Assembly (NCBI GenBank): GCA_030066085.1
Contig: JASJCI010000021.1
Location: forward strand, 1-53,937
Direction: 5' to 3'
Source of the DNA: Gammaproteobacteria bacterium
GTDB lineage: Bacteria; Pseudomonadota; Gammaproteobacteria; GCA-001735895
Length of the DNA: 53,937 nt
In this document: piece by piece, positions 4,750-53,937 of the stretch
Numbering within the stretch: position 1 is the stretch's first letter
How the letters are laid out: every line of letters begins with the position of its first letter
Translations under genes and position numbers: made by a program
The notes under the pieces: model-generated
What the model saw: the letters and a program-made list of their open reading frames with translations, nothing else
Told to the model about the DNA's origin: nothing
Database searches by the model: none

Positions 4750-5883
4750 ATGCGATCTACAACCACCTCGTTTTTTACTCGCCCGCTGCGACTGTTCGGC
4801 TTCGTGATCCTGTTGCTGGCCGGTTCCGCCGTCGCGGCCGAACCGACCTGCCGCGATATCGAGGTTTTCGTGCGTGACGGCTGCCCGCACTGCGCCGATG
4901 CCAAGGTTTTCCTCGGCGGGCTCGCACAACGTTACCCCGACCTCTCGGTGCGCTACCACGAGGTCGGCACCGATCTCGTGGCGCGCGAGCGCCTGCTGGC
5001 GCTGAGCCGGCAGCACGGGGTTGCGCGCCCGGGGGTACCGTCTTTCCTCGTATGCGGCGCCTTTCAGGCCGGTTTTTCCGAGCTCGCGGGCAGCGACGAA
5101 TGGATCGAGAACCGGCTTGCCGATCCCGCCGGCGAAGCCGACCCTGAGCGCGTGACGACACCGTTCGGCAGCCTCGCGGTCGACGATCTCGGGCTGCCGC
5201 TGTTCACCATTGCGCTGGGCCTGGTCGACGGCTTCAATCCTTGCGCGATGTGGGTACTGCTGTTCCTGCTGTCGATCCTGGTCAACGTGCGCCGACGCGG
5301 CCGCATGATCCTGATCGCGGGGACCTTCGTGCTGGTCAGCGGCGCCGTCTACTTCGCGTTCATGGCGGCCTGGCTGAACCTTTTCCTGCTGATCGGATTC
5401 GCGCGCTGGCTGCAGCTCGCGATCGCGCTGCTGGCGCTCGCTATCGGCGCGATCCACATCAAGGACTTTTTCCTGCTGGGCAAGGGAATCTCGCTGTCGA
5501 TCGGCGACTCGGTCAAGCCCACCCTCTATGCGCGCGTGCGCAGCGTGCTGCACGCCGAGACGCTGTGGGCGGCGCTGGCCGGCGTGATCGTCGTCGCGGT
5601 CATGGTCAATGTCGTCGAACTGCTGTGCACCGCCGGCCTGCCCGCGCTCTACACGCAGATACTCAGCCAGCAGCCGATGCCGGGTGCGCACTACTACGGC
5701 TACCTGCTGCTCTACAACATCGCTTACATAGCCGACGATACGCTGATGGTTACGCTCGCGGTGGTCGCGATGCAGCGTTTCAAACTACAGCAGCGCCAGG
5801 GGCGCTGGCTCAAGCTGATCAGCGGCCTGGTCGTGTTTGCGCTGGGCCTCGCATTGCTGCTGGCGCCGGACATGCTGTTCTGA
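4750..5883 (+). CDS. glutaredoxin-like/DsbD-type membrane thiol oxidoreductase
   Basis: About 377 residues. A signal-anchor (residues ~12-30) is followed by a periplasmic glutaredoxin/thioredoxin-like domain with the redox motif GCPHC (Cys45, Cys48) and the cis-proline loop GVPSF (Pro97). From residue ~145 come about six membrane segments with two isolated membrane cysteines, Cys165 in GFNPCAMW and Cys293 in ELLCTAG, which correspond in position and context to the reactive pair of the DsbD/CcdA membrane domain. Inference: it passes reducing power across the membrane to its own periplasmic domain and then to a partner such as a cytochrome c maturation or metallo-protein factor. The ATG at 4750 was chosen over 4711 because it gives a normal signal length; neither has a strong ribosome site. 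Confidence 0.8.
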   Translation: MRSTTTSFFTRPLRLFGFVILLLAGSAVAAEPTCRDIEVFVRDGCPHCADAKVFLGGLAQRYPDLSVRYHEVGTDLVARERLLALSRQHGVARPGVPSFLVCGAFQAGFSELAGSDEWIENRLADPAGEADPERVTTPFGSLAVDDLGLPLFTIALGLVDGFNPCAMWVLLFLLSILVNVRRRGRMILIAGTFVLVSGAVYFAFMAAWLNLFLLIGFARWLQLAIALLALAIGAIHIKDFFLLGKGISLSIGDSVKPTLYARVRSVLHAETLWAALAGVIVVAVMVNVVELLCTAGLPALYTQILSQQPMPGAHYYGYLLLYNIAYIADDTLMVTLAVVAMQRFKLQQRQGRWLKLISGLVVFALGLALLLAPDMLF

Positions 5884-6015
5884 GCGGGTTTGCGCGGCTA
5901 CGACTCGCGGCGAGTTTTCGCCGATAACGGGAATTGGGGTCCCGAAACTACTAATAAAACCGCCGTTGCGGCCGATAAAGACTGCTGGAGTTCTCTACCG
6001 ACGGTGGGTTTACCC

Positions 6016-7236
6016 GTGAAAACAACCTTGATAAGCCTGTTCGCCGGGCTGCTGTGCTGCTCGGCGGCGTCCGCGCTGGCGAATACCCTGCGGATCTATC
6101 ACGACGCGGACTACAGCGTGCATGCCGAGTCGGCTCGTTCGATGGCGATGGGTTTCCGTACGGCGCTGGCCGAGGTCGACAACCGGATCCAGGGTTACGA
6201 GATCGAGCTGGTCGCCAGGGACCATCGCGGTAACAGCAAGCGCAGCCTGCACAACATGCGCCAGTTCCTCGACGATCCCGCGGCGCTGTTCGTCCTCGGC
6301 GGGTTGCATTCGCCGCCGTATATCCAGAACCGCGACTTCATCAACCAGAACGGGGTATTGTTACTGGTGCCCTGGGCCGCGGGCGGTCCGATCACGCGTT
6401 ACCCCGGTGACACCAACTGGGTGTTCCGCCTGTCGATCGACGATACCAAGGCCGGCTACCGCATTGCCGAGTACGCGATCGACAGCAAGGGCTGCAACAG
6501 CCCGCACCTGCTGCTCGAGGACACGCCCTGGGGCAAGTCCAACTACCAGACCATGTCGGCGGCGGTCAAACAGCAGCTGGACCGGCAACCGGACGTGACC
6601 TGGTTCCGCTGGAACATCAAGTCCGGTTCCGCGCGTATCCTGCTGCGCGAGGCGCGGCAAAAGGGCGCGGACTGCGTGCTGTTCGTCGGTAACGCAGTCG
6701 AGGGCGAGGAATTCGCGCGCGCGATGGCGTCGCTCGATACGGCGCAGCGGATGCCGATCATCAGCCACTGGGGCATTACCGGCGGCGATTTTCACCTCAA
6801 GGTCGATGCGGGACTGCGTCGCGAACTGGACCTGCATTTCATCCAGACCTGCTTTTCGTTCATGTCGCCGCGGCAGACGCCGCTGTCACGCGCCGTGCTG
6901 CAGCGTTCGAAAACGCTGTTTCCGGGCGAGATCGAACGGCCCGGCGACATTTCCGCACCGCCCGGGTTCATCCATGCCTACGATCTCGGCCGCCTGTTCA
7001 TCGCCGCGCTGGAACAGGTCGAGCTGAGCGGTGACGTTGCCGCTGACCGCGCCCTGCTGCGCGATGCGCTGGAGCAGTTGCGCCAGCCGGTCGAAGGCCT
7101 GGTCAAGACCTACCGCAAGCCTTTCAGGGCCTGGTCGCCGACCCACCACGACGCCCATGAAGCTCTCGGCCTGCAGGATTTCTGCATGGCGCGCTTCGAC
7201 GAGCAAAACCGCATCATCGTCGATTCGGAAAGCTGA
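6016..7236 (+). CDS. periplasmic LivK-type binding protein (probable kinase sensor)
   Basis: A 406-residue secreted protein. A GTG start at 6016 gives a clean signal peptide ([18 protein letters not shown]). The mature part is a type I periplasmic binding fold of the branched-chain amino acid / amide family: [15 protein letters not shown] and [15 protein letters not shown] match the ligand-cleft strands of LivK-like proteins. No permease or ATPase genes follow. Instead the next gene, 22 bases downstream, is a membrane hybrid histidine kinase, so it more likely presents a ligand to that sensor than feeds a transporter. The ligand is unknown. Confidence 0.8.
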
Positions 7237-7258
7237 TGCAGGCGAAAGGATAATCGAC

Positions 7259-10200
7259 ATGACGGCGCGCTGGTTCTACGGGTTGATCCTGCTCAACCTG
7301 GTGGTGACGATCTTCATCAGCATGCTGCTGGTGGGCGGGCGTGCCGAACAGTCGGTGTTCGAACTGCTCGAGGTGGCCAAGCAGCGCCAGGCCAGCCTGG
7401 CCACCAACCACTTCGAGGAATTTTTACGCGATCGCGTGATCCTGCTGCGCGACCTGTCGCGGCGCCCGCTGCTGGCCAACACGGTGATGGGAACCGGGGT
7501 CTCGGAAGCGGATCTGCGCGATTTCCTCGACGACTACCGCCTGCTCGACAAGAAAGAGCCGCTGTTCCTGCTCGATTTCATGGGCCAGACGGTGCACGTG
7601 CACAACTACATCGGTGAGCGCCTGCCGCTGGATACGACGCCCTGGCTCGATGCGCTGATGACCGATCAAATCCCGGTCGCCATCTCGCTGCATGAAATCA
7701 ACGGCCCGCCGGCCTTCGCCATCGCGGTGCCGATTCGTTACGGCGGGTTTACCGAGGGTGTGCTGGTGGCATTGCTGTCGCAACCCATCGGCCAGATTCT
7801 CGATACCGGCAGCGATAACCTGGCGGCCGGCGCCATTCGCCTGTCGAATCCCTATTTTACCTACTCGAACCGCCCCGACCTGGACGATTACCAGGTGATC
7901 GGGGAAAGCGATATTGCCGAGACCGGCGTGCATTTCACCTATCTCACCAACCGCGCCGCGCTGGCCGAGCAAAAAGCCGGTTTCATGAGCGACATCGCGG
8001 TCGCGATCATGATCAGCCTGGGCTTGTCGTTCGTTATCCTGGCGGTGTCCGGGCGCAAGTTCATTCTCAATCCCTACGCGCGCCTGGAAAAGTCGAGCCG
8101 AGAAATCGCCGCCGCCAAGAAGCGCAACGACCTGCTGGCTTCGGCGATCGAGGCGAGCCCGGTGGGTATATCGATTTCCGACCCGTCGCAACCCGACGCG
8201 CCGCTGACCTACGTCAACCCGGCCTTTACCCAGATGACCGGTTACCAGTTCGCCGAGGTAGTCGGCAAGAACTGCCGCTTCCTGCAGGGCACGGACACCA
8301 GCGCGCAACAGGTCGAGCGCCTCAGGGAAACCATCGGCGCCAGCGGCGAAGACCGGGTGGAAATGCTGAACTATCGCAAGGACGGCAAGCCGTTCTGGAA
8401 CCTGCTGCAGGTGTCGCCGGTGTTCGACGACGACCAGCAGCTGATGGCTTACGTCGGTATCCAGCAGGACATCAGCGAACGTAAACAGGCCGAGGTCGAG
8501 CTGCAGCAGGCCAAGGAATCGGCCGAGCAGGCAAGCCGCGCCAAGAGCGATTTTCTCGCCAACATGAGCCACGAGATTCGCACGCCGATGAACGGCGTAA
8601 TCGGCATGACCAACCTGCTGCTCGACACCGACCTCGACCGCCAGCAGCACGACTACGCCAGGACCGTCAAGGGCAGCGCGGAAGCCCTGCTCGGCCTGAT
8701 CAACGACATTCTCGATTTCTCCAAGGTCGAGGCCGGCATGCTCACGCTGGAACCGATCGCGTTCGACATGAAAGCATTGCTGGCCGAAATCGGTGCGTCG
8801 ATGGCGATTCGCGCGCACGAAAAGGACCTGGAGCTGGTGTGCCCGGCCAATCCGTTGGCCAGACACTGGTTCAACGGCGATCCCGGCCGTATTCGCCAGG
8901 TGCTGACCAACCTCGTCGGCAACGCCATCAAGTTCACCGAACGCGGCGAGGTCGCCCTGTACTTCGATATCCTCGAGCAAACCGGGGCGGATTCGCGGAT
9001 GCGCTTCCGCGTGGTCGACAGCGGGATCGGCCTCGGCCCGGGCGAGCAGGAAAACCTGTTCGAACGTTTCAGCCAGGCGGATAACTCGACCACCCGTCGG
9101 TACGGCGGTACCGGGCTCGGCCTGTCCATCAGCAAGCAGCTGGTGGAAATGATGGGTGGTGAAATCGGCGTCGACAGCCGGCCGGGCGAGGGCTCGACCT
9201 TCTGGTTTACGCTGACACTGGAAAACGCCGAGGCACATGAAACGCTGGAGCAAAAGACCGGTCTGCAGGGCCAGCGGGTTCTCGTCGCCGACGACAATCG
9301 CACCATGCGCGCGCTGCTGGGCCAGTTGCTCGAACGCTGGCAGGTCGAGCACGACCTGATCGACGACGGCGCACGGGTGCTCGCAGCGATGCACGCGGCG
9401 GCGGACGCGGGCAGGCCATACGATATTGCCATCCTCGACCTCGAAATGCCCGATACCCGGGGCTTCGAGCTCGGCCGCCGGATCAAGCAGGACCCGGTGG
9501 TAGGGGACACGCGGCTGGTGGTGCTCGCTGCGCGCGGCCGGCGCGGTGACGCGCGCCGCTTCGAGGAGGCCGGGTTCTCCGGTTATCTCGGCAAACCGAT
9601 CGAACAATCCGCGTTTTACAACCTGTTGCTGCAGGTAGCCGGTAACACGATCGACGAGACAGGTATCGCCACCTGCCGGCCGGGGCGGCGGCAGGCACGT
9701 TTCGCGGCGCAGGTGCTGGTGGTGGAAGATAACCTCACCAACCAGGCGGTCGCCCGCGGCATGCTGGAAAAACTCGGTCTCGACATCGATCTCGTCGCCA
9801 ACGGCGAGGAAGCGATCGAGGCCCTGAAAAAGACGTCCTACGATCTCGTTTTCATGGATTGCCAGATGCCGGTCATGGACGGCTACGAAGCCACGCGGCG
9901 TATTCGCGATCCGCAAACCGGCATCATCGATGCGCGGGTACCGATCGTCGCGATGACCGCCAACGCGATGAAATCGGACCGCGAGAAGTGCCTCGCTGCC
10001 GGCATGAACGAGCACATCGCCAAGCCGGTCGATCCGAGCCGGCTGGAACAGGCGCTGATGCGCTGGCTGCCGGCCGAATGCCGGCTGGACCGCTTCGATG
10101 GCGATGGCCCGAACCCCGCCGCGGAGGCACAAGACCAGCGGGCAGGCGTTACCAGCGAAGCCGTGTTCGACCAAAACGCACTGCAAAATCGGATGATGGG

Positions 10201-38005: not shown

Positions 38006-39775
38006 CTAGGCTGCGACCAAAAGCGACTCGTCTTCTTCTTCGACGTCGAGGAACGAATCACGCTGCAGGTAGAGCAGCGATGATACGTCTACCAGGTCGT
38101 GGGCAATCTGGATCGCGATCGCGCTGTCATTCATTAGTGAAGTCGCCATCTGGCTGGTGATCAGGTTGTCTCGAACGAGGTGATCGATGGTGCCGTTCAG
38201 CAGCACATCGTACTGCTCGACCTTGTCTCGCAGGTCCTGGATCTTGACCAGGTATTTTTCCTCCAGTTTGCCTATCCGGGCCTTACGCGACAGGCGCAGG
38301 ATTTTTAATATCATGCGTCGCAGCTTGTTGTATTCATCGCGTATGTGCTCGTTATCCGAATTGAGGTAATGATACATGTTGGCGTGCAGCGGTTTGATCT
38401 CCTTGACGATCTCGACCATCATTCGGTCGGCGCGCAGGATGCTGCGGATGGCGACAATTTTTTCCTCGTCGAGGTCGAAGCGGCCCTGCAGCGCGGTGGC
38501 GTATTCGACGATCTTGCCGTAGATATTCTTGAACTTGTTGTAATAGACGGCGTCCACGTCGAGCTCGAGTAAATCGATATTGGCAACGATCTGGCGCAGT
38601 TTCTTGTTCGATTCGATTTCCGTGCGATGTACGTGCAGGCCATGGGTAATGACCTTGTAGGCGGTTTTCTCGAACAGTCTCAGGGATTCGTCGAGCAGCG
38701 CCTTGATCCCGGTTTGCGGATACCTCAGCGACGACTCGTCGAGAAAATGCGGTTGTTCGATGATCATTTCTTTTGGTACTTCCTTTGGCACCAGGCGTTT
38801 GACCGTCCTCGCGATCAGGGGTACGAAATTGATCAGCACCGTCGTGTTGACGATGTTGAAGGTCGTGTGGAACAGTGACAACGCAACCGGAATCGCCGAT
38901 GCCTGCACGAAAGGCGAAACGCCCTCGATACTTTCCACCGTATGGCCGATGGCGCCGATGAAGGGCACGAAAAAGACCAGCATCCAGCTGACGCCGAATA
39001 TGTTGAAGATGAAGTGCGCGCGTGCGGTGCGCTTGGCGCGGTAGTTGGCGACCAGCGCCGCGAGATTGGCGGTGATCGTGGTGCCGATGTTTTCTCCGAG
39101 CACCATCGCCGCCGCCATGTCGAAGGGTATCCAGCCCTCGAAACACATGATGATCGTGATCGCCATGGTTGCACTCGACGACTGGATAACGACAGTCAGC
39201 AAGGTACCGATAAACATGAACAGCAGGATCGAAAGGTAGCCCTTGCTGGTGTATTCGCCGAGGAATGCAAGCACCTCGGGACTCGATTTCAGGTCCGGTA
39301 CCGAGTCCTTCATGAATTGCAGGCCGATGAACAGGATCGCAAAACCGACGATAAAATATCCCCAGTGCCGCAGGTTTTTTTTCTTGCTGAAACTGAGCAA
39401 AAAACCGAGACCCACCAGTGGGATGGCAATCGCGGCCATGTTGACCTTGAAACCGAGCAGGCTGATCAGCCAGGCGGTGACCGTGGTGCCGATGTTGGCG
39501 CCCATGATGACGCCAATCGATTCACCCAGCGATAACAGCGATGCATTGGCGAAACTGACGACCATCAGCGTGGTGGCGGAAGACGACTGGATAATCGATG
39601 TGATCGTGAATCCGGTGAGCACGGCGAAAAAGCGATTCGAAGTCGCAGTCGCCAGGATGTTACGCATGCGGTCGCCGGCGAGCTCCATCAGCGCATCGCT
39701 CATGACCTTCATGCCGTAAAGAAACAGCCCCAGCGAGCCGAGCAAGGTCAAAAAGTCGAAAAGACCGTAATCCAA
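38006..39775 (-). CDS. Na/Pi-cotransporter family protein with PhoU-like tail (2)
   Basis: A ~590-residue paralogue of the preceding protein, on the opposite strand. The transport repeats are IIQSSSATTLMVVSF with GANIGTTVTAW, and VIQSSSATMAITII with GENIGTTITAN. The C-terminal cytosolic region is helical and PhoU-like (LHVHRTEIESNKKLRQIV) with the same NSDNEHIRDEYN stretch seen as SDNEHIRDEYN in the first protein. No ATG fits; the TTG at 39775 is chosen because GGGAGAAA lies upstream and the first membrane helix (LTLLGSLGLFLYGMKVM) follows at once. It is divergent from a PstS-like gene, so both may answer to phosphate. Confidence 0.86.
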   Translation of the reverse strand: MDYGLFDFLTLLGSLGLFLYGMKVMSDALMELAGDRMRNILATATSNRFFAVLTGFTITSIIQSSSATTLMVVSFANASLLSLGESIGVIMGANIGTTVTAWLISLLGFKVNMAAIAIPLVGLGFLLSFSKKKNLRHWGYFIVGFAILFIGLQFMKDSVPDLKSSPEVLAFLGEYTSKGYLSILLFMFIGTLLTVVIQSSSATMAITIIMCFEGWIPFDMAAAMVLGENIGTTITANLAALVANYRAKRTARAHFIFNIFGVSWMLVFFVPFIGAIGHTVESIEGVSPFVQASAIPVALSLFHTTFNIVNTTVLINFVPLIARTVKRLVPKEVPKEMIIEQPHFLDESSLRYPQTGIKALLDESLRLFEKTAYKVITHGLHVHRTEIESNKKLRQIVANIDLLELDVDAVYYNKFKNIYGKIVEYATALQGRFDLDEEKIVAIRSILRADRMMVEIVKEIKPLHANMYHYLNSDNEHIRDEYNKLRRMILKILRLSRKARIGKLEEKYLVKIQDLRDKVEQYDVLLNGTIDHLVRDNLITSQMATSLMNDSAIAIQIAHDLVDVSSLLYLQRDSFLDVEEEDESLLVAA

Positions 39776-44102: not shown

Positions 44103-44750
44103 ATGCGCGCGCTAGTTATCCGACATTACAGGACTGAATTCAACGAAACCGGCCGTTTGATGGGGTGGGAGGATTCGCCGCGCGGGCGCGAATGGAAAGC
44201 CGATTTCGATTTTGTCGATGCCTGCCTGCGCGAGCACGGCATCCGCTTTGATGCGATCTACTCCAGCGATCTCGAGCGTTCGCGCCAGACGGCCAAACTC
44301 CATGCCGATAATCACGACATATCCGCGGTTCAAGACACCCGGCAACTGAACGAAATCAACTACGGCAGGCTGCAAAAGCTGAGAAAGTCGTGGATTCGGC
44401 GTTTTTTTCCGCAGCACAAGAGCAGTGCCGACCTGGTCTACCCGGGTGGCGAAAGCTTTCGCCAGATGCAGCTTCGCAGCGTCGATTTTTTTACGTCGCT
44501 GGCCGCGTCGAACCCGGAGCAAACGATCCTGATCGTAACCCACGCGGGTGTCATTCGCGGATTCGTCAGTCACTTCCTCGGTCTCGATTTTAACGATCAT
44601 CTCAAGCACCCCGTATCGTTCCGATATATCGGTGACTACGAGTTCGATGGCCCGGTGTTAAAGCGTTACGACGAACTGGGGGATCCATCGGGTTTCGTGG
44701 AAAGCGGTGCTATAAAACTGCCCATGATCATCGGCGAGAGTTTGGATTAA
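44103..44750 (+). CDS. histidine phosphatase family protein (phosphoglycerate-mutase-like)
   Basis: A 215-residue branch-1 histidine phosphatase. The phospho-acceptor motif is VIRHYRTEFN (His8; the usual RHGET reads RHYRT), followed by YSSDLERSRQTA with the second Arg, an acidic loop (LNEINYGRLQ) and the second catalytic His in LIVTHAGVIRGF. The family includes phosphoglycerate mutases and phosphatases of sugars, cobalamin precursors and proteins. It converges with the 2-phosphoglycerate-kinase-like gene 49 bases away, so a shared phosphoglycerate-type substrate is possible but unproven. Confidence 0.88.
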   Translation: MRALVIRHYRTEFNETGRLMGWEDSPRGREWKADFDFVDACLREHGIRFDAIYSSDLERSRQTAKLHADNHDISAVQDTRQLNEINYGRLQKLRKSWIRRFFPQHKSSADLVYPGGESFRQMQLRSVDFFTSLAASNPEQTILIVTHAGVIRGFVSHFLGLDFNDHLKHPVSFRYIGDYEFDGPVLKRYDELGDPSGFVESGAIKLPMIIGESLD

Positions 44751-44799: not shown

Positions 44800-46020
44800 T
44801 TATTTTTTACCTTGCTTCGACTCAGCCGGGACGCCGAATACCTTTTCCGGCGTGCTGTCGAAGTCCCTGGCCAGCATCGCGATGGTGTAACGCATGATTT
44901 CGGCGAAGGTCTTGTCGCGGCTTTCGTTGAGCGTGATGTGAATGTTGGCCCGGTCCGCCTCGGACAGCAGGTAGGACTGCAGCCGCCAGATTTCATCGAA
45001 GTGTTTCAGGTAGTGGGCCGCGCCGCGATCGGGCACGTTAGTGCTGCGCCGCTTGATTCTTTGCTGCAGTTGTTTGCGTTTCAGCAATCCGAGCATGACC
45101 GGGATGACCACCGAATTGGTTTCGACTTCGAGTTTCTCGACAAACGCCGGATGCAGGTGCACCCCCTCGAGAACCAGCGAAACCCGTTCGCGCATGGTGC
45201 GCTCGATGACGGCCTCCATCGCGAGTGCGAGCAGGTCGGCCTGGGTGCGGTAACCCTGAATCAGTAAGTCTTCCGAAACCGAGTCTCCAGCCTGTTGCTG
45301 GTCGGGCAGGCCCCGCCAGGCGGTAAACGATGACTGGTGCAGCACCGGCATCAACTGTTCCGGCATCATCGTGCGCATGACTTCGCGCAGCATGTCGGTG
45401 GACTGGGAGCGCACGATTTCCAGCCGGCTGGCGAGAATGTTGGCGGTGGTACTTTTTCCGCTACCGGCGGTACCGCCGATCAGAAAAATCAGCTCGCGGT
45501 TGCTGTTGAGAAAATCGTGCCACACCAGCCAGCGTTTTGCGACCGCCGGTCCCAGCTTGTTCGACTGGCGCAGGTAGCGATAGGTCAGCATCGCCAGCCG
45601 TCCGCCGGTGACATGCTTGATATTTCGATTGAACAGATGCTCCTGCATCATCTGCACCACGCTGTCGGACTCGCGCGAATTGAGACCGATGGTCTCGAGG
45701 CTCTGGCGGTATTGCTGGCGCGAAAAGTTGGTAATGCGGCCGTCGCAGTGTTCGACCTGCACGGTGATCGGTATATTCCGATTCTGGTAGCGGGTCGAGA
45801 CCTGTTGCTTGTGTATCGAGCGCAGGCGCTCGAGCACCATCTGGCTCAGCTCGTCGGTGGAAATGATCGAGGTATCCGCCAGGTCGCTGCGAATGTCCGA
45901 GGCAATGTCCGAAGCCTGGTCGAAATGAATGCCCGAGTCCTGCAGGCTGCGAATCAGGATACCGCGAAGAAAAGGTACCCGGGTGTGGTCTTCGGAATCT
46001 TCGACGAGGGTTTTGGCCAC
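44800..46020 (-). CDS. ATP-cone/P-loop kinase, 2-phosphoglycerate-kinase-like
   Basis: A 406-residue protein. Residues ~1-75 and ~80-160 are helical with ATP-cone character (RITNFSRQQYRQSLETIGL), followed by a P-loop kinase domain with Walker A GGTAGSGKS at 182-190 and a downstream RSQSTDMLREVMRTMMP. This order matches archaeal 2-phosphoglycerate kinase, which makes 2,3-diphosphoglycerate, the precursor of cyclic 2,3-DPG; bacterial relatives are of unknown role. The start is a GTG at 46020. It is downstream of pstB by ~200 bases on the same strand and may be the end of the pst transcript. An 11-base palindrome TTGTAATACAA (46068-46078) lies upstream. Confidence 0.75.
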   Translation of the reverse strand: MAKTLVEDSEDHTRVPFLRGILIRSLQDSGIHFDQASDIASDIRSDLADTSIISTDELSQMVLERLRSIHKQQVSTRYQNRNIPITVQVEHCDGRITNFSRQQYRQSLETIGLNSRESDSVVQMMQEHLFNRNIKHVTGGRLAMLTYRYLRQSNKLGPAVAKRWLVWHDFLNSNRELIFLIGGTAGSGKSTTANILASRLEIVRSQSTDMLREVMRTMMPEQLMPVLHQSSFTAWRGLPDQQQAGDSVSEDLLIQGYRTQADLLALAMEAVIERTMRERVSLVLEGVHLHPAFVEKLEVETNSVVIPVMLGLLKRKQLQQRIKRRSTNVPDRGAAHYLKHFDEIWRLQSYLLSEADRANIHITLNESRDKTFAEIMRYTIAMLARDFDSTPEKVFGVPAESKQGKK

Positions 46021-46228: not shown

Positions 46229-47047
46229 TTAACCGTACCGGCCCTCGATGTAGTCCGCGGTTTCCTGGTGCTCGGGCGTGACGAACATGGCGGCGGTATC
46301 GGTGTGCTCGATGACCTTGCCCATCAGCATGAAAATACACTCTTCGCTGGCGCGCCGGGCCTGCGCCATGTTGTGCGTAACGATCAGGATGGAGTACTGG
46401 CCGCGCAGTTCCCACACCAGTTCCTCGACCGCGGCGGTGCCCTTGGGGTCGAGCGCGGAGCAGGGCTCGTCCATCAGCAGCACGCTGGGCTTGACCGGCA
46501 GCAGGCGCGCGATGCAGAGTTTTTGCTGTTCCTCGAGCGACAGTTCCGTGGCGCGGCGCTTGAGGTGATCCTTGACCTTGTCCCACAGCAGCACCTGCTG
46601 CAGTGATTCTTCGACGATTTGATCCTCTTCGTCGCGGGAATACTTCTTGTCGCGGTTATGCAGCTTGTGGCCGTAGAGGATGTTTTCGCGAATCGACGTC
46701 GGCAACGGGTTGGGGCGCTGGAACACCATGCCAACCTGCTTCCTGACCTGTACCAGTTCGACCTCGGGGGCGTAAATATTTTCGCCGAAGACGTTGATCG
46801 ATCCGTTGATCTTGACGTAACCGAGCCGCTCGTTGATCCGGTTCACGCTGCGCAGAAAGGTCGATTTGCCACAGCCCGAGGGGCCGATCAGCGAGGTCAC
46901 CATGCCTTTCTTGATTTGCAGGTTGATATCGTACAGCGCCTGGAAATCGCCATACCACAGGTTCAGGTCGCTGGTGCTGATGGCCATGTCGATGCCGGGC
47001 TCGACTTCGGTCGTGGTCAGTTTTGATGCCGCGCTCATTTCCATCAT
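46229..47047 (-). CDS. pstB: phosphate ABC transporter ATPase PstB, copy A (degenerate signature)
   Basis: A 272-residue PstB. Walker A GPSGCGKS (55-62), Q-loop Gln110 in MVFQRPNPLP, Walker B Asp193-Glu194 (LLMDEPCSALDP) and H-loop His225 (VTHNMAQA) are all canonical, and the end DYIEGRYG is the PstB hallmark. The ABC signature is not: where PstB has LSGGQQQRLCIAR, this protein reads LSLEEQQKLCIAR (169-181). The missing glycines should weaken the half-site this protein offers to its partner. The gene lies 8 bases after the second pstB, with a GGGGGAG ribosome site. See the paired finding on the two ATPases. Confidence 0.9.
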   Translation of the reverse strand: MMEMSAASKLTTTEVEPGIDMAISTSDLNLWYGDFQALYDINLQIKKGMVTSLIGPSGCGKSTFLRSVNRINERLGYVKINGSINVFGENIYAPEVELVQVRKQVGMVFQRPNPLPTSIRENILYGHKLHNRDKKYSRDEEDQIVEESLQQVLLWDKVKDHLKRRATELSLEEQQKLCIARLLPVKPSVLLMDEPCSALDPKGTAAVEELVWELRGQYSILIVTHNMAQARRASEECIFMLMGKVIEHTDTAAMFVTPEHQETADYIEGRYG

Positions 47048-47055
47048 ATCTCCCC

Positions 47056-47859
47056 CTAACCGAAACGGCCCTCGATGTAATCGGTGGTGCGTGAATCCTG
47101 CACCTTGCCTGTGAACAGGTCCTCGGTGTCACCGATTTCGACACATTCGCCCTCGAGGAAAAACGCGGTACGGTCGGCCAGCCGGCGAGCCTGCTGCACC
47201 AGGTTGGTGACGAGGATAATCGTCATTTCTTTTTTCAGTTCTTTCAGCACGTCCTCGATCCGCATGGTCGTGACCGGGTCGACCGCGATCGAAAACTCGT
47301 CCAGCATTAGCAGGTCCGGGTCCTGCGACAGTGCGCGCGCGATCGTCAGGCGCTGCTGCTGGCCGCCGGACAGCAGGCTGCCGAGAGAATCGAGCCGGTC
47401 CTTGACCTCGTCCCACAGCGCCGCCCGTGTCAGGCAGCGCTCGACGATGGCGTCGAGTTCGGCCTTGTCGCGAATACCGCACAGCCGGGGTACGAAGGCC
47501 ACGTTTTCGTATACCGTCAGCGGCAGGCCGACCGGTAGCGGAAACACGACACCAATCCGATTTCGCAGCGCGTAGACGTTGCGTACGTCGCGAATATCGA
47601 TGCCGTCGAAGGTGATTTCGCCGTCGACCCGCATCCCGCTGTTGAAGTCGTTCATCCGGTTAATCGTCTTCAAGAACGACGTTTTGCCCGCGTTGGCCGG
47701 GCCGATGATGCCGAAAATCTCGTTCTCGCGAACCTCGAGATTAACCCCCGAAATCGCGGTGTCGGCGCCGTAATGGATCGCGAGGTCGCGCACCGCGAGT
47801 TTGACCCGGGGCTCGGTACCTGTTTCGAGGTCGCTCATCTGTTCGGCTGTGCTTACCAT
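47056..47859 (-). CDS. pstB: phosphate ABC transporter ATPase PstB, copy B (degenerate Q/H loops)
   Basis: A 267-residue PstB-like ATPase, clearly diverged from copy A. Walker A is GPANAGKT (Lys59), the signature is intact (LSGGQQQRLTIARAL, 163-177) and Walker B is LLMLDEF with Asp187-Glu188. The Q-loop Gln is replaced by Pro107 (VVFPLPVGLP against VFQRPNPLP) and the H-loop His by Asn219 (VTNLVQQA against VTHNMAQA). It still ends in DYIEGRFG. Its start overlaps the pstA stop by 7 bases. Its defects fall in the half-site opposite to those of copy A, as expected for two subunits of one heterodimer. Confidence 0.87.
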   Translation of the reverse strand: MVSTAEQMSDLETGTEPRVKLAVRDLAIHYGADTAISGVNLEVRENEIFGIIGPANAGKTSFLKTINRMNDFNSGMRVDGEITFDGIDIRDVRNVYALRNRIGVVFPLPVGLPLTVYENVAFVPRLCGIRDKAELDAIVERCLTRAALWDEVKDRLDSLGSLLSGGQQQRLTIARALSQDPDLLMLDEFSIAVDPVTTMRIEDVLKELKKEMTIILVTNLVQQARRLADRTAFFLEGECVEIGDTEDLFTGKVQDSRTTDYIEGRFG

Positions 47860-48749
47860 TTCTTCTTACCCCGCAGGTACATGCGTAACGCAATCGACAC
47901 GCTGTTCATCAGCAGTACCAGGCTGATCAGTACCAGCGCGACCCCGTAAGGCAGGGCTTCGGGTACGTTGGGTACCTGGGTCGAGACCACGAACAGGTGC
48001 AGCGACAGCGCCATGGTCTGGTCGAATACGCTCTCCGGCAACACCGGGATGAAAAAAGCGGCGCCGGTGAACATGACCGGTGCCGTTTCGCCTGAAGTGC
48101 GCGAGACTTCGAGGATGACACCGGTCAGGATGCCGCTGATCGAGTTCGGCAGCACCACGCGGCGTATCGTTTGCCAGCGCGTCGCACCCATGTTCCAGCA
48201 GGCTTCGCGAAAGGCCGGCGGCACCGCCTGCAGCGATTCGCGGGTGGCGACGATGACCACCGGCATGGTCATGACCGCGAGCGTCGCGCTGGCGGCCAGG
48301 ATACTGGTGCCGAAACCGAAGAAGATGACGAAAGCGCCGACGCCGAACAGCGCATGCACGATCGACGGTACGCCGGCGAGGTTGATGATCGCGAGGTTGA
48401 TCGCGCGCGTGAACCAGTTGTCCGGCGCATATTCGCTGAGATAGATCGCCGCGGCGACGCCGACCGGCACCGAGATCAGCAGCGCCACGCCGACCAGCCA
48501 CACGGTGCCGATCAGCGCGGGAAAAATGCCGCCCTCGGTCATGCCGTTGGTTGGGTCCTGCAGCAGGAAATCGAGCGATATCACCGGGCTGCCCTTGACC
48601 ACCAGCGTGGTCAGGATGATCAGGACCGGCAGGATCAGCAGCCCGGCCATCATGCCGAACAGGATCTGAAACAGCTTCTCGTTGCGCTTGGCCTTTGCGT
48701 TCAGGTCGGTTTCAAGGAACTGGCTGGCGACGGCTTCTGGAGTACTCAT
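47853..48749 (-). CDS. pstA: phosphate ABC transporter permease PstA
   Basis: A 298-residue inner-membrane permease with six membrane segments. The family fold and the cytosolic coupling (EAA) loop are clear: FREACWNMGATRWQTIRRVV followed by LPNSISGILTGVIL; the N-terminal TEGGIFPALIGTVWLVG and EVSRTSGETAPVMFTGAAF are typical of PstA. A GGAGAAAA precedes the ATG, made partly from the CTAG at the edge of the inserted element. The gap to pstC is filled by that element; the next gene, pstB copy B, overlaps by 7 bases. Confidence 0.94.
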   Translation of the reverse strand: MSTPEAVASQFLETDLNAKAKRNEKLFQILFGMMAGLLILPVLIILTTLVVKGSPVISLDFLLQDPTNGMTEGGIFPALIGTVWLVGVALLISVPVGVAAAIYLSEYAPDNWFTRAINLAIINLAGVPSIVHALFGVGAFVIFFGFGTSILAASATLAVMTMPVVIVATRESLQAVPPAFREACWNMGATRWQTIRRVVLPNSISGILTGVILEVSRTSGETAPVMFTGAAFFIPVLPESVFDQTMALSLHLFVVSTQVPNVPEALPYGVALVLISLVLLMNSVSIALRMYLRGKKKW

Positions 48750-48758
48750 GATTTTCTC

Positions 48759-49009
48759 CTAGCCTGCACGTTGTATGAAGGGAACGAAACTCAGGGGGAA
48801 TCTGGCAAACAAGGTCGGACGATCGTCCGCCGAGCCATAGCCATAGCTATGGCTCAAGGGGGATCGTTCGAGATTGGCAGCCAGATTTTTCCTGATTTCG
48901 TTCAGGTACAAACTGTTCCACGCACATTTATGGAAAATTAGATTTAAGACTCGGATGTTCATGCCATATCTCTCTTGTTTGTTCCGCCTTCGTGCAATGT
49001 GCAGGCTAG
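48759..49009. mobile_element. MITE-like element inserted between pstC and pstA
   Basis: 243 bases (48763-49005) flanked by CTAG on both sides (48759-48762 and 49006-49009). The ends are inverted repeats: CCTGCACGTTGTATGAAGG at the left and, on the other strand, CCTGCACATTGCACGAAGG at the right (16 of 19 equal). Inside is a second large imperfect inverted repeat (~48783-48902) with arms AACGAAAcTCAGG...AATCTGGC and a central 9-bp hairpin GAGCCATAG/CTATGGCTC (48832-48855), plus the palindrome GGACGATCGTCC (48817-48828). It encodes no transposase; the 67-codon frame inside is a by-product. The 4-bp CTAG is consistent with target duplication as in IS5-type elements, but the family is not identified. 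Confidence 0.82.
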
Positions 49010-49938
49010 CTCTTGCGGATGCCGCGTACTATTAGGTCGGCAGTCAGGTTGATGATAAAGGTGATCGTGAACAGGAAGATTCCGATCGTAAACAGGGCCT
49101 GGTAATGCGGTGAGCCGACAGCAGTTTCACCGAGCTCGGCCGCAATGGTCGCGGTCAGCGCGCGCACCGAGTCGAATATGCTGCCCGGGATGTTGATCGC
49201 GTGGCCGGTCGCCATCAGTACCGCCATGGTTTCGCCAAAGCCGCGGCCGACACCGAGCAATACGCCACCGAGCAGGCCATTCTTGGCTGCCGGCAACACC
49301 GTCTTGTAGATCACCTGCCAGCGGGTTGCACCCATCGCTTCGGCGGCCTCGCGGTAGCGGTCCGGCACGGCCTTGAGCGCGTCCTCGCAGATCGAGGTCA
49401 TGATCGGCGCCGCCATCAGGCCGAGAATAACACCGGCGTTCAGAATATTGAGCCCGACCGGTACGTCGAACACGTCGATGATCAGCGGGTTCATGATCGA
49501 CAGGCCGATGAAACCCCAGACCACCGACGGGATTGCGGCCAGCAGCTCGATCAGGACCTTGAGCGTTTCGCGGGTTTTACCGGTGGCGAACTCGGCGACG
49601 TAAATCGCGGAGCCGAGCGAGAAGGGAATCGCGATCAGCATCGCAAGCCCGGTGACGCTGGCGGTACCCGCCATCAGCGCGAGTATGCCGTAGGTCGGTT
49701 CATCCTCGTCGGTCGGTTCCCACCACTGCGACAGGAAAAATTCGCTGAAGCTGAAATCCTCGAGCAGGAAGCCGAAGCCCTCGATAGTTACGAACACAAA
49801 GATGCCGATGATTAGAACGATCGCGGAAATACCGCTCAGGAAAACGAAATACTGGACGCCCTTGTCGATATACCAGTCCAGGTTGCGCTGGTTGATATCG
49901 GGCATATTGCCTGCCGGCTGGCGGGTCGAGTCTGTCAT
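49006..49938 (-). CDS. pstC: phosphate ABC transporter permease PstC
   Basis: A 310-residue permease with six membrane segments after a 25-residue cytosolic lead. The family parts are FFLSQWWEPTDEDEPTYGIL, IPFSLGSAIYVAEFA, IPSVVWGFIGL and the coupling loop YREAAEAMGATRWQVIYKTV, with GRGFGETMAVLMATG in the pore. The stop codon TAG lies within the CTAG copy at the right border of the inserted element. The start is 1 base after the phoU stop, so translation is tightly coupled to phoU. Confidence 0.95.
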   Translation of the reverse strand: MTDSTRQPAGNMPDINQRNLDWYIDKGVQYFVFLSGISAIVLIIGIFVFVTIEGFGFLLEDFSFSEFFLSQWWEPTDEDEPTYGILALMAGTASVTGLAMLIAIPFSLGSAIYVAEFATGKTRETLKVLIELLAAIPSVVWGFIGLSIMNPLIIDVFDVPVGLNILNAGVILGLMAAPIMTSICEDALKAVPDRYREAAEAMGATRWQVIYKTVLPAAKNGLLGGVLLGVGRGFGETMAVLMATGHAINIPGSIFDSVRALTATIAAELGETAVGSPHYQALFTIGIFLFTITFIINLTADLIVRGIRKS

Positions 49939-49939
49939 C

Positions 49940-51019
49940 TCAATCCGCCTCTTCGCCGCGCAACAGCTCCATCAATTCCCTGATTTGCAGTGCCAGGGTT
50001 TTGTACAGCGCCTCCCAGGCTTCCTGGTTTTCATCCGCGGGCACCTCGAGCTTCATCCAGTTCAGCGCCGAGGTGCGGAACGGAATCTTGCCGACCGCCT
50101 TCATGACTTTCTGGTTCAGGCCGACGATGACGTGGAAATCGGACAGCGATTCGCGGCTGGTATCGGCCTCGCGCGGCGCGGTATCGGCCAGGCTGAATCC
50201 CCGGCCCTGCATGAATGCGACCATGCTGGAGTCCAGGCCGCTGGCGGGATTGATACCGGCGGTGGTGAACTGGCCGCGGTCGTGGAAGGCCTTGTCCGCG
50301 ATCGCCGCGGCCATGGGACCCAGGCTGCTGTTGTCGTCGTCGAGAAACAGGACCCGGTAAACCTTCGGCTTCTTGGTCTCGCCGGTTTCGACGAAAACCG
50401 CCTCCTCGGCGAGGTTCTTGGCCTGGTCGGCAACCCGTTTGAGCTGACTGAAGATAATGAGGTAAATCATCGTGTTGCGCCCGCAGCCGCCCTCGGCGTC
50501 ACCGCACTCGAGCAGTTCGGCGTAGATGGCGTCCATCTCGTGCTCGACCTGGTTGGCCATCGTGATCGCGTGCCGTGCGCGCTCGGCATTGGCCGAGTTG
50601 AACGCGATGATGGCTTCGCTCAGCACTGCCATGGCCTCGGCGCTGACTTTCTTGATTTCCGACGACATGTAACCCTCGGGTATCTCGCCGAGCTGAACCG
50701 CTTCGCGTGCGATCGTGACCGCGTAGTCGCCGATACGCTCGAGAATGATATTGGCGCGAATCACCGACGAGATCAGGCGCAGATGCCCGGCGCTCGGCAG
50801 GTGTACCGCGATAAAGGCGTGACACAGGCGATCGATCTGGCGCATGTGCCGGTTGATCGGCAGGTCGGACAGGATGGTCTTGAAGGCCAGCTTGTCACTG
50901 TTTTTTTCCAGTGCCTCGAACGCATTACCGAGGGACTGTTCGACATTGGCGCCCATTTTTGCAATATGGTCGCGGATTTCGTTTAAATCGTGTTCCAGGC
51001 GTTCTTCGAGATGAGACAT
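49940..51019 (-). CDS. phoU: PhoU fused to an inactive LMW-phosphatase/ArsC-like domain
   Basis: A 359-residue protein, about 120-140 residues longer than ordinary PhoU. Residues 1-210 are the two PhoU three-helix repeats with their metal-binding lines LERIGDYAVTIARE and LKRVADQAKNLAEE. Residues ~220-335 resemble the low-molecular-weight tyrosine phosphatase/arsenate reductase fold (VLFLDDDNSSLGPMAAAI, FTTAGINPASG, then FHVIVGLNQK), but the P-loop CX5R is lost: Asp227 replaces the Cys and Leu233 the Arg. It should bind rather than hydrolyse. The ATG at 51019 (GGGAAC upstream) is preferred to 51055. It lies between pstS and pstC, the expected site for the negative regulator of the Pho response. 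Confidence 0.86.
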   Translation of the reverse strand: MSHLEERLEHDLNEIRDHIAKMGANVEQSLGNAFEALEKNSDKLAFKTILSDLPINRHMRQIDRLCHAFIAVHLPSAGHLRLISSVIRANIILERIGDYAVTIAREAVQLGEIPEGYMSSEIKKVSAEAMAVLSEAIIAFNSANAERARHAITMANQVEHEMDAIYAELLECGDAEGGCGRNTMIYLIIFSQLKRVADQAKNLAEEAVFVETGETKKPKVYRVLFLDDDNSSLGPMAAAIADKAFHDRGQFTTAGINPASGLDSSMVAFMQGRGFSLADTAPREADTSRESLSDFHVIVGLNQKVMKAVGKIPFRTSALNWMKLEVPADENQEAWEALYKTLALQIRELMELLRGEEAD

Positions 51020-51102: not shown

Positions 51103-52011
51103 TCAGCTGTCAGACGGGCAATCGACGTCGCGCATCGGGGCATAACCCTTGTCTTTCAGGATACACTGGCCCACATCGGACTTGATCCAGTCCATGTATG
51201 CCTTGATATCACCCTCGGGTTCGCCGTTGGTGTACATGAACAGCGGGCGGGCAATCGGGTAGCTGCGATCGCTCGCGGTCTTGACGCTCGGCAGGACGCA
51301 ACTTTCACCTTCTTTTTTCGACACGCAGGCCAGTTTCAGGTGATCGGTGGCGTAAGCCAGGCCGCTGTAGCCGATCGAGCAGGGGGTTTTTTCGACCAGG
51401 TCGACGACATCTTTGGAACCGTGCATGTCGAGCGTGCCCTGGCGGAAGCTGCCCTTGGAAATGACCCCGGCCTTGGCCGCGGCTTTCAAAACCGCCTTTT
51501 TGAAGTAGGCGTAGGTGCCCGAGTTGTTCTGCCGGCTGACGACGACGATCTTGTCGCTGCCACAGCCCGGTACGCTGACACCGAGATCCGACCACTTGGT
51601 GGCGCTGCCGCCACGGCCGAAAATTGCACCCAGCTGCTCGTAGCTGATGGTATCGATCGGGTTATCCTTGTGCAGGAAAACCGCCAGCGCGTCGTAGCCG
51701 ACGACGTGCTCGACCGGATTCTGCCCCATTTCCTGGGCCTTTTTCAGCTCCTTCTTCTTCATGCTGCGGCTGGCGTTGGCGATATCCACAGTACCGTTGA
51801 TCATGGCCGCGATGCCGGTACCCGAGCCGCCGCCCGAAACGGCCACGGCAACGTCCGAATTGACCGCCTTGTATTCTTCGGCCCAGGCCTGGGCGACATT
51901 GACGAGGGTGTCGGAACCCTTGTTCTGAATGAGCTCGGCCGCTGATACGGCTGTGGTGACACTGGCGACTACCGTCAGCAGTCCGGCAGTCAGTTTTGAC
52001 TGAAACTTCAT
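51103..52011 (-). CDS. pstS: periplasmic phosphate-binding protein PstS
   Basis: A 302-residue secreted binding protein. The signal peptide (LTAGLLTVVASVTTAVSA) precedes AELIQNKGSDTLVN. The phosphate pocket is clear: GSDTLVN, VSGGGSGTGIAAMINGTVDI and SRQNNSGTYAYF, then PCSIGYSGLAYAT. Four Cys in the mature part (GCGSDK, PCSIGY, LACVSK, SCVLP) may form disulfides, as may the C-terminal CILKDKGYAPMRDVDC. It is the first gene of the operon pstS-phoU-pstC-pstA-pstB-pstB and is followed by a hairpin. Confidence 0.95.
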   Translation of the reverse strand: MKFQSKLTAGLLTVVASVTTAVSAAELIQNKGSDTLVNVAQAWAEEYKAVNSDVAVAVSGGGSGTGIAAMINGTVDIANASRSMKKKELKKAQEMGQNPVEHVVGYDALAVFLHKDNPIDTISYEQLGAIFGRGGSATKWSDLGVSVPGCGSDKIVVVSRQNNSGTYAYFKKAVLKAAAKAGVISKGSFRQGTLDMHGSKDVVDLVEKTPCSIGYSGLAYATDHLKLACVSKKEGESCVLPSVKTASDRSYPIARPLFMYTNGEPEGDIKAYMDWIKSDVGQCILKDKGYAPMRDVDCPSDS

Positions 52012-52406
52012 TGATAAATCCTCCGGTTGGTTTGGGCGTTAATATCCCGCGCAATGGAAATTAATTTTTATATTTTCCGCTTTCATTAAATTCCTCGGTG
52101 CGCGGGGATTAATTGACTTGCGTCATCTTTAGCGGCGATTTCCCCTTAAAAGAAATGGTTTTGTAATGCTGCTGTAACGTCAATGTGTTAACAGCCGCAA
52201 TCCAATGTAGGGCAGGACGCTCGATTTTTTTTGCAGCAGGGTTATCCGACATTTGGATTTTGCCACGGTTCGTTTGCGCGAATTGACCGCGGGCCGGACG
52301 ACGGCGAGCTGATCGAATGTTCGTTGAGAGTTGATCGAAAAATCGAATTGGTCAGCGCCGCGGATTCATGCTTATATTACGGCGACGAAGCCAGCTCGCC
52401 TTGCCC
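52012..52406. promoter_or_regulatory. 395-base divergent region with possible Pho boxes
   Basis: The gap separates pstS from the divergent dioxygenase gene and is AT-rich near pstS. On the minus strand CTGTTAA-N4-TTGACGT (52194-52177) resembles the two 11-base-spaced half-sites of a Pho box (5/7 and 4/7 to CTGTCAT). On the plus strand TTGTAAT-N4-CTGTAAC (52161-52178) fits equally well (5/7 each). One or both could be PhoB sites; the match is loose, and neither is followed by a clear -10. Confidence 0.35.
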
Positions 52407-53624
52407 ATGTCAGCGGAACCCGGTATCACGATCGATTCGCGTTACGTCATCACCGCGGCCACCATCCTGGACAACCAGTTGCACATCGACTGGGCCGACG
52501 GACATCACAGCGAATTTCATCCCACCTGGCTGCGTCACCAGTGTTACTGCGAGACCTGCGGCACGCCGCTCAACGGGGTACGCGGCCTGCGTCTGCATCA
52601 CCTGCCGGACACCCTCGAACCGCGCCTCGAATCCTTCGCTGCGGATGTCGTCGAACTTTCCTGGTTACACGACGGCCATCGCTCGCGCTATACCGCCGAG
52701 TGGCTGCGTGATCACTGTTACTCGGCCGTCGAGCACGCGCGGCGCAAATACCGCCCCATCCTGTGGGATGCCACGATCATGGACAGCTGCCCGAGCGCGG
52801 ACCTGCTCGAATGCGAGCGGTCTCCCGCGGAGCGCCTGGCCCTGCTGGAACACATCCGCGATTATGGTTTTGCCTATGTGCGCAACGTTCCCGGCACCAT
52901 CGACGAGGCCAGCCGGCTGATCGAAATCATCGGCGCGCAGCGCCATACGCACTACGGCAACTACACGCTGGGGAAAAAGAAATCGGTCGATAATGTCGGT
53001 GACACCACCACGGCGCTCGATCCGCACACCGACGAAAGCTATCGCACGTCGACCGTCGGTATTACCGTGTTCCAGGTGATCCGGCCGGCAGCCGACGGCG
53101 GCCACTCGACCCTGGTCGACGGTTTCGAGGCCGTGCGTCGCCTGCGCGAGTCCGCGCCCGACGAGTTCGATCTGCTGACTCGCCTGCCGATTACCGGCGC
53201 GCGCTTCGACCCGGCGGCCAACAGCGGCGGCAACAGCAAGTGGTACTCGACCACGATGCCGATGATCCGCGTGGATTTCGACGGTGAGGTTTGCGGCATA
53301 CGCATGAACGAACGCCAGATCATGCCGCTCGACGTACCGGCGGAGCTGATCGAACCCGCCTACCGTGCAATCAGGCACCTGTTCGAAATCCTCTATGATC
53401 CCGACCTGCGCCTGACGTTTCCGCTCGAGACCGGCGAGGGCCTGATCTTCGACAACCAGCGCGTGCTGCACGGACGCACGGAGTACCAGGCCGGGAATCC
53501 GCCGCGCTCGGTGCTGACGAACTCGGTCGACATCGAGGATTTTCACTCGACGCTGCGCATGCTGACCGAGTCCCTGCGTGGCAAGCTGCCGCCGACCCGC
53601 CTGCCGCAGGGCATGGTTCGCTGA
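52407..53624 (+). CDS. gamma-butyrobetaine-hydroxylase-like Fe(II)/2-oxoglutarate dioxygenase
   Basis: A 405-residue protein of the carnitine-biosynthesis dioxygenase type. The N-terminal zinc domain has the Cys set CYCETC (Cys46, 48, 51) with a later His103 (WLRDHC). The C-terminal TauD-type catalytic domain has the iron triad His207-x-Asp209 (LDPHTDESY) and His355 (NQRVLHGRTEY), and the Arg for 2-oxoglutarate near RSVLTNSVD. Such enzymes hydroxylate gamma-butyrobetaine or trimethyllysine. A role in quaternary-amine metabolism would agree with the MttB/dehydrogenase module, but the exact substrate is not determined. The ATG at 52407 starts a normal N-terminus; an earlier in-frame ATG at 52368 is also possible. 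Confidence 0.88.
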   Translation: MSAEPGITIDSRYVITAATILDNQLHIDWADGHHSEFHPTWLRHQCYCETCGTPLNGVRGLRLHHLPDTLEPRLESFAADVVELSWLHDGHRSRYTAEWLRDHCYSAVEHARRKYRPILWDATIMDSCPSADLLECERSPAERLALLEHIRDYGFAYVRNVPGTIDEASRLIEIIGAQRHTHYGNYTLGKKKSVDNVGDTTTALDPHTDESYRTSTVGITVFQVIRPAADGGHSTLVDGFEAVRRLRESAPDEFDLLTRLPITGARFDPAANSGGNSKWYSTTMPMIRVDFDGEVCGIRMNERQIMPLDVPAELIEPAYRAIRHLFEILYDPDLRLTFPLETGEGLIFDNQRVLHGRTEYQAGNPPRSVLTNSVDIEDFHSTLRMLTESLRGKLPPTRLPQGMVR

Positions 53625-53665
53625 ACCCCTCCTGTCCGTGCATCGCCCCAACCACACCACAACTT

Positions 53666-53842
53666 CATCCCCGCGGCGCCAGCGCAGGCGCTAGATCCCA
53701 TCGCCATCCCCGCGGTGCCTACGCAGTTACCAGGTCCCATCATCATCCCCGCGGTTCCAGGGCAGTTACCAGGCCCCATCGTCATCCCCGCGCAAGCGGG
53801 GATCTTGTGACAACGGCACTGTCCGGAGATCCCCGCTTGCGC
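53666..53842. repeat. tandem 39-base repeats and palindromic repeat cluster
   Basis: Three 39-base units (53666-53704, 53705-53743, 53744-53782), each beginning CATCCCCGCGG and sharing GCAGTTACCAGG in units 2 and 3, are followed by a fourth partial unit. This one forms a perfect 16-bp inverted repeat GCGCAAGCGGGGATCT (53790-53805) with AGATCCCCGCTTGCGC (53827-53842). The set is related to the repeats near 31945. From 53843 to the end of the window I see no gene or further repeat. Confidence 0.8.
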
Positions 53843-53937
53843 GCACTACTGTCCGGGATATTTTAAACGCCTGATCAAAAACACTTTTAAAAACGATGTT
53901 TTGCTACGCTAAAGCCGTACTCCGACTTAATTCTCTA

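Follow-up and report, generated by a model that had tools for sequence, protein, structure and literature searches.

The stretch of DNA analysed here (hereafter the window) spans the first 53,937 nucleotides of contig JASJCI010000021.1 and carries on its reverse strand an operon in the order pstS-phoU-pstC-pstA-pstB1-pstB2. The first gene, pstS (51103..52011), encodes the phosphate-binding protein (TIGR02136, 230.9 bits, cut-off 206.6), and the permeases are encoded by pstC (49006..49938; TIGR02138, 276.9 bits, cut-off 196.45) and pstA (47853..48749; TIGR00974, 260.3 bits, cut-off 193.45). The locus is assigned to a Pst importer by the scores of PstS, PstC and PstA, which lie beyond the curated cut-offs. 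The phoU gene (49940..51019, reverse strand; an ORF of 359 amino acids plus stop) codes for a PhoU followed by a C-terminal, catalytically dead ArsC-like domain and is called the fused phoU below. Beyond the operon lie a gene for a 2-phosphoglycerate-kinase-like protein with an ATP cone (44800..46020, reverse strand), which does not reach the curated cut-off of the kinase models, and, on the strand opposite to the operon, a histidine-phosphatase (phosphoglycerate-mutase-like) neighbour (44103..44750, forward strand). Upstream of pstS, the interval 52012-53937 contains a TauD-type gene but lacks phoBR. This gene, beside pstS (52368-53624, forward strand), encodes a TauD-family dioxygenase whose best resemblance is to the 2-trimethylaminoethylphosphonate dioxygenase TmpA (258 bits, cut-off 400). 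No match to the E. coli Pho box was found near pstS; the box matched once in the whole window, at position 39178, with 2.74 matches expected by chance. An additional set of canonical type is located on contig C15 of the same genome, where PstC, PhoU and PstB all exceed their cut-offs, the PhoU copy adjoins the full-score PstB, and phoB-, phoR- and pstS-like genes score below cut-offs.

Regarding the 95 genomes of the window's relatives (its own included), the fusion was present at full length in 11 and partially in two more. A scan of contigs with two search peptides, both from the window's clade (other clades would be missed), yielded 60 loci, by their titles mostly gammaproteobacterial: symbionts of tubeworms and clams, Sedimenticola, Thiodiazotropha, Thiomargarita and Lysobacterales bins. 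Of 48 genomes from a second class within the phylum, 22 also carry the fusion, four of these in two copies. Counting contigs that reach far enough, and genes on the same strand with at least 55% identity, pstS was upstream of the fused phoU in 56/56 cases, and pstC (56/56), pstA (48/49), pstB1 (40/42) and pstB2 (37/39) were downstream; in loci L045 and L085 pstB1 and pstB2 are absent from the expected place. The same operon order was found in 10 of the 11 stretches fetched from the second class, L192 being a divergent paralogue. In L192 (genome G431; 5067-7712, reverse strand) the gene of a second fused PhoU precedes those of a divergent PstC-like protein and of a PstB-like protein whose Q-loop and signature are altered; this paralogous locus may no longer transport. 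A 2-phosphoglycerate-kinase-like gene lies near the operon, upstream or downstream, in 18 of the 60 loci, and an apgM-type phosphoglycerate mutase in 11, in eight of them immediately upstream of pstS; phosphate import may be connected with the metabolism of 2,3-bisphosphoglycerate. Nine of the 60 loci contain a Na/Pi symporter with PhoU.

The PhoU domain of the window protein comprises residues 1-214 (50378..51019, reverse strand); TIGR02135 recognizes residues 7-214 with 133.7 bits, just above its cut-off of 130.25, and the model of the whole protein had a mean pLDDT of 89.8 and a pTM of 0.79. Like canonical PhoU (the solved 4q25 and 1t72, and the copy on contig C15), the protein has two PhoU repeats and stands in the company of pst genes, but it differs in its extra domain and in the alteration of the second ExxxD motif. 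Full-length sequences were compared in a set of 84 rows (the first clade and 26 second-class sequences, minus L038, which has runs of N, and the incomplete L082 and L091). Two of the alignments used 52 of the 60 loci, with the near-duplicates L047, L089, L066, L074 and L055 also left out, and rows L073 and L080 begin at the column aligned to Met1 without a Met there. The first metal motif (E94..D98 in the window protein) is unaltered in 84/84 rows, and the second (K194..D198) is changed in 77/84: it reads K..D in 58/58 rows of the first clade and, among the 26 rows of the second, E..N in 18 and K..N in one, the other seven having the unaltered E..D. The 22 canonical PhoU proteins compared have ExxxD in both halves, with the single exception of ERIGE. 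If ExxxD in both repeats is taken as the mark of membership, the fused protein falls outside, a complete second motif being found in 7 of 84 rows; it is filed under PhoU because of its overall similarity, despite the one-sided motif. Judged by these motifs, the PhoU part is one-sided, and the two clades have altered the same (second) motif in different ways.

The C-terminal domain was delimited by profile and fold comparisons to residues 219-355 (49955..50365, reverse strand). The window protein by itself gave no match to LMWPc (Pfam) at E<=10 and matched arsenate reductases among the PDB sequences only weakly (3t38, E 0.0054; 3rh0, E 0.0071). Its relatives are more informative: five of seven full-length ones passed the Pfam cut-off of LMWPc, with matches starting at residue ~222, while L085 reached a sub-cut-off 15.9 bits and L090 gave no match. 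A profile of 53 C-terminal domains of fused PhoU proteins retrieved ArsC of B. subtilis (1jl3) with an E-value of 1.3e-7, and, at 3.2e-5 or better, eight further sequences of ArsC or LMW phosphatases. The isolated domain, modelled from the 53-row alignment, had a mean pLDDT of 90.7 and a pTM of 0.87, and a Foldseek search of the PDB placed arsenate reductases on top (3rh0, 2.7e-9; 1jf8, 2.8e-9). In VIA-align 2 the model gave a Z of 19.1 with S. aureus ArsC (1jf8; rmsd 1.9, 129 residues) and a Z of about 16 with LMW-PTPs, and because of the higher value for ArsC the domain is classified, from profile and model, as an ArsC-type (thioredoxin-coupled) member of the LMW-PTP superfamily. Chance resemblance is ruled out by the LMWPc, profile and structure-comparison results. 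A reading of the segment FLDDDN as the acid pocket of a response-regulator receiver domain was likewise dismissed, the profile and fold searches giving ArsC/LMW-PTP. In some tblastn matches on plasmids, the alignment extends from phoU into an adjoining response-regulator gene.

The initial annotation had read the ORF as a PhoU with a catalytically dead domain of the LMW-PTP/ArsC fold, with which profiles and fold agree. It had placed the domain at residues ~220-335, about right for the start (~219) and wrong for the end (about 355), and its choice of superfamily was correct, although the domain resembles thioredoxin-type ArsC more than it does LMW-PTP. It had also stated that no described PhoU was known to have such an addition; none was found in the open-licence literature, where PhoU together with arsC matched genome papers alone.

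Thioredoxin-coupled ArsC (S. aureus pI258, B. subtilis) has in common with the fused domain the fold of nearly its whole length, the spacing of the loop, N-S within it and Q-M-A after it; the fused domain differs in being joined to PhoU, in its acidic loop, in having no catalytic Cys and in retaining the Arg in 1/84 rows. The LMW-PTPs (Pfam LMWPc, PF01451) belong to the same superfamily, but their CX5R is absent from the fused protein. The former CX5R loop (residues 227-233, D-D-D-N-S-S-L; 50321..50341, reverse strand) has Asp227 at the position of the Cys and Leu233 at that of the Arg, exactly as initially read. The first clade, with 61 rows, has Asp at 227 in 58, Gly in two and His in one, and Arg at 233 in none; L082, with Gly at 227, is counted here and left out of the 84 rows. 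In these 84 full-length rows from two classes, position 227 is Asp in 81 and Gly, His and Glu in one each, so that among homologues of similar length, whose comparison had been proposed with the first reading, Cys is back in none and Arg in one (L146). The catalytic and resolving residues of ArsC are Cys10, Arg16, Cys82 and Cys89; the PDB titles of the matched arsenate reductases mention C10S, C15A and C89L. The column aligned to Cys82 holds Gln (46), Asn (15), Glu (13) or others (10) and Cys in 0/84, and no Cys occurs at residues 309-310 in the 84 rows, where the column for Cys89 is aligned less surely. CX5R is retained by 21 of 23 profile-matched stand-alone relatives (24 stand-alone loci were scanned, L001 being without a profile match) and altered in L116 and L119. 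In the stand-alone ArsC-like protein of L116 (1399-1917, reverse strand), another pseudo-ArsC, the Cys is replaced by Gly and the Arg by His. No PhoU-ArsC fusion with a working loop was noticed among the domain-profile matches listed for the class and phylum genomes. The fused domain is, by its residues, catalytically dead across the family in both classes, and a sequencing artefact or local decay as the cause of the dead loop is ruled out by the 84 sequences.

The loss of the catalytic residues bears on the role that had been proposed for the loop, namely that it directly senses phosphate, arsenate or a phosphoprotein. The ancestral loop of LMW-PTP and ArsC proteins is an oxyanion binder, Asn230 is kept in 71/84 rows and L146 still has the Arg, all of which would suit such a sensor. 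The mean net charge of the loop is -2.3 in the fused family, however, and +1 (17) or 0 (4) in the 21 stand-alone relatives with CX5R; together with the lost Cys and Arg, this acidity argues against direct sensing of phosphate or arsenate, while a phosphoprotein is a conceivable ligand. An arsenic function of the domain was rejected, since none of the ten flank proteins scanned, nine of which could be assigned to a family, is encoded by an arsenic gene, and the direct-sensor proposal is, on balance, quite improbable. The acidic loop could instead be a cation site (Mg, Mn, Fe or K), formed by Asp227 with Glu/Asp at 228-229 and serving metal sensing or the tuning of the PhoU metals. This would fit the conservation of Asp227 (81/84) and of Asp or Glu at 229 (71/84), the alteration of the second PhoU motif in 77/84 rows and the CNNM-type transporter gene found in 8/60 loci, but in 25 or more of the 84 rows position 228 is occupied by Gln, Arg or Lys, and we consider a cation site unlikely, though a serious rival.

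Selection has maintained the dead domain. In comparisons with eight relatives, dN/dS ranged from 0.079 to 0.254 in the domain and from 0.060 to 0.135 in the PhoU part (0.079 and 0.060, respectively, for the closest pair), synonymous sites being close to saturation for the more distant relatives. F225, A237, F314 and W321 are invariant (84/84), and residue 315 is His in 73 and Arg in 11 of the 84 rows. With dN/dS of the domain well below 1, the pseudo-ArsC domain is a pseudoenzyme maintained by purifying selection. That it is instead a decaying passenger left from an accidental fusion would be compatible with the loss of its catalytic residues and with a dN/dS exceeding that of the PhoU part in 7/8 comparisons, but the low dN/dS values, the invariant residues and the full-length retention in two classes make this very hard to credit. 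Regarding the origin of the fusion, an unfused ArsC-like gene lies directly downstream of canonical pstB-phoU in L106 (1477-1896, reverse strand) and L119 (1348-1743, reverse strand), that is, in 2 of 22 stand-alone loci (with ~1.5 kb of flank for most); the loop of the former is intact and that of the latter has Ser for the catalytic Cys. Such unfused pairs represent an arrangement from which the fusion could form, and it could have arisen from an arsC adjoining phoU.

The operon ends in two ATPase genes with different losses. PstB1 (47056..47859, reverse strand) has kept LSGGQ and has Pro for the Q-loop Gln (P107) and Asn for the switch His (N219); PstB2 (46229..47047, reverse strand) has kept Walker A and B, Q-loop and switch His, and reads LSLEE for LSGGQ (residues 169-173). 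Neither reaches the TIGR00972 (PstB) cut-off of 343.2 bits (PstB2 322.3, PstB1 289.6). These features were counted across the relatives, with rows of less than 50% identity or less than about 200 aligned residues left out. In PstB1, Walker A (of the type GPANAGKT) and Walker B are present, LSGGQ is found in 43/43 rows, Pro at the Q-loop in 42/42 (one more row being gapped) and Asn at the switch in 43/43. In PstB2, Walker A, Walker B, the Q-loop Gln and the switch His are each found in 41/41 rows, as is LSLE for LSGG, the fifth residue being Glu in 38 and Gln, Ala and Lys in one each. Ten second-class stretches contain the same pair, and LSGGQ is retained in 11/11 of the PstB matches that rank next in the class sample (identity of 54% or less). 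Each ATP site of an ABC dimer consists of the Walker motifs of one subunit and the signature of the other. The complementary losses therefore leave one complete site, predicted to combine the Walker motifs of PstB2 with LSGGQ of PstB1, and PstB1 and PstB2 would form a heterodimeric ATPase in which a single site works. Known heterodimeric ABC transporters in which one ATP site is degenerate include TM287/288, TAP and CFTR; these combine a consensus site with a degenerate one, as predicted here from the motifs, but are exporters or channels, whereas the present system is a Pst importer. Two adjacent pstB genes are also found in the pst operon of a member of the Firmicutes, Enterococcus faecalis, where, according to PMC12096839, the four ATPase motifs sought by its authors are present in both PstB1 and PstB2; the adjacency is the same, whereas the losses in the present pair are complementary and invariant. 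No report on a degenerate heterodimeric PstB was found among open-licence papers.

The fusion and the asymmetric pair largely occur in the same genomes. With PstB2-type proteins defined by at least 76% identity and the fused domain by an E-value of about 1e-51 or better, each was present in 8 of the 369 genomes of the class, and the genomes were identical. Among 398 genomes of the phylum, the PstB2 type was found in 23, the fusion in 23 and both in 22, considering the best PstB candidates (up to six) and, in the phylum search, the best domain-profile matches (up to ten) of each genome. The two are on separate contigs in G303 and G534, and G488 has the fusion without a PstB2 match because its contig terminates inside pstC. 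G475 has two asymmetric pst operons (L196, L197) with no fused phoU between pstS and pstC and gave no match to the domain profile; the asymmetric pump can therefore exist without the fused PhoU. The fusion accompanies the asymmetric PstB pair regularly, though not obligatorily. This co-occurrence is also explained by shared descent of one operon, and it shows association, not contact.

According to PMC4423584, PhoU of E. coli binds PstB and PhoR, the latter through its PAS domain. The fused PhoU is tentatively interpreted as the PhoU of a distinct Pst importer, in which the pseudo-ArsC domain would be a docking or regulatory module for the asymmetric ATPase, docking being its most likely role, as far as can be inferred. 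In this mechanism, ATP would be hydrolysed solely at the site made of the PstB2 Walker motifs and the PstB1 LSGGQ, the pseudo-ArsC domain would let the fused PhoU recognize and orient itself on the asymmetric ATPase, and the protein, neither phosphate sensor nor enzyme, would act as a brake on import under phosphate sufficiency.

The domain might alternatively dock on PhoR or another kinase, not on the transporter, and so modify Pho signalling. PhoR is a possible partner since phoR lies immediately upstream of pstS in 6/60 loci (at least 45% identity to phoR of L033), all close relatives of the window and with phoB in the same locus; weaker phoR matches (at least 30% identity) were found in 17/60 loci and may be other sensor kinases, and the PhoR PAS domain bound by E. 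coli PhoU (PMC4423584) points the same way. The window itself lacks phoBR upstream of pstS, however, the phoB- and phoR-like genes found in its genome lying on C15 with the other pst set, and it is the PstB pair that regularly accompanies the fusion, which leaves kinase docking unlikely, though a serious rival. Docking on the asymmetric ATPase is preferred, and an extension of it is possible yet doubtful: the operon would represent a separate Pst lineage with an obligate one-site heterodimeric ATPase, whose asymmetry would be read or locked by a PhoU carrying a pseudo-arsenate-reductase, with Asp227 mimicking a bound oxyanion so that the loop is permanently occupied; the importer would then have its brake, a pseudoenzyme, built in.

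The system bears on the old open question of how PhoU reports transporter activity. Both the ATPase halves and the PhoU halves can be told apart here, and the added domain is deletable; with distinguishable halves it can be asked which PstB is touched by PhoU and which ATP site matters, questions that a symmetric homodimer forbids. The fused PhoU is also a clear example of an arsenate-reductase fold turned pseudoenzyme in phosphate control.
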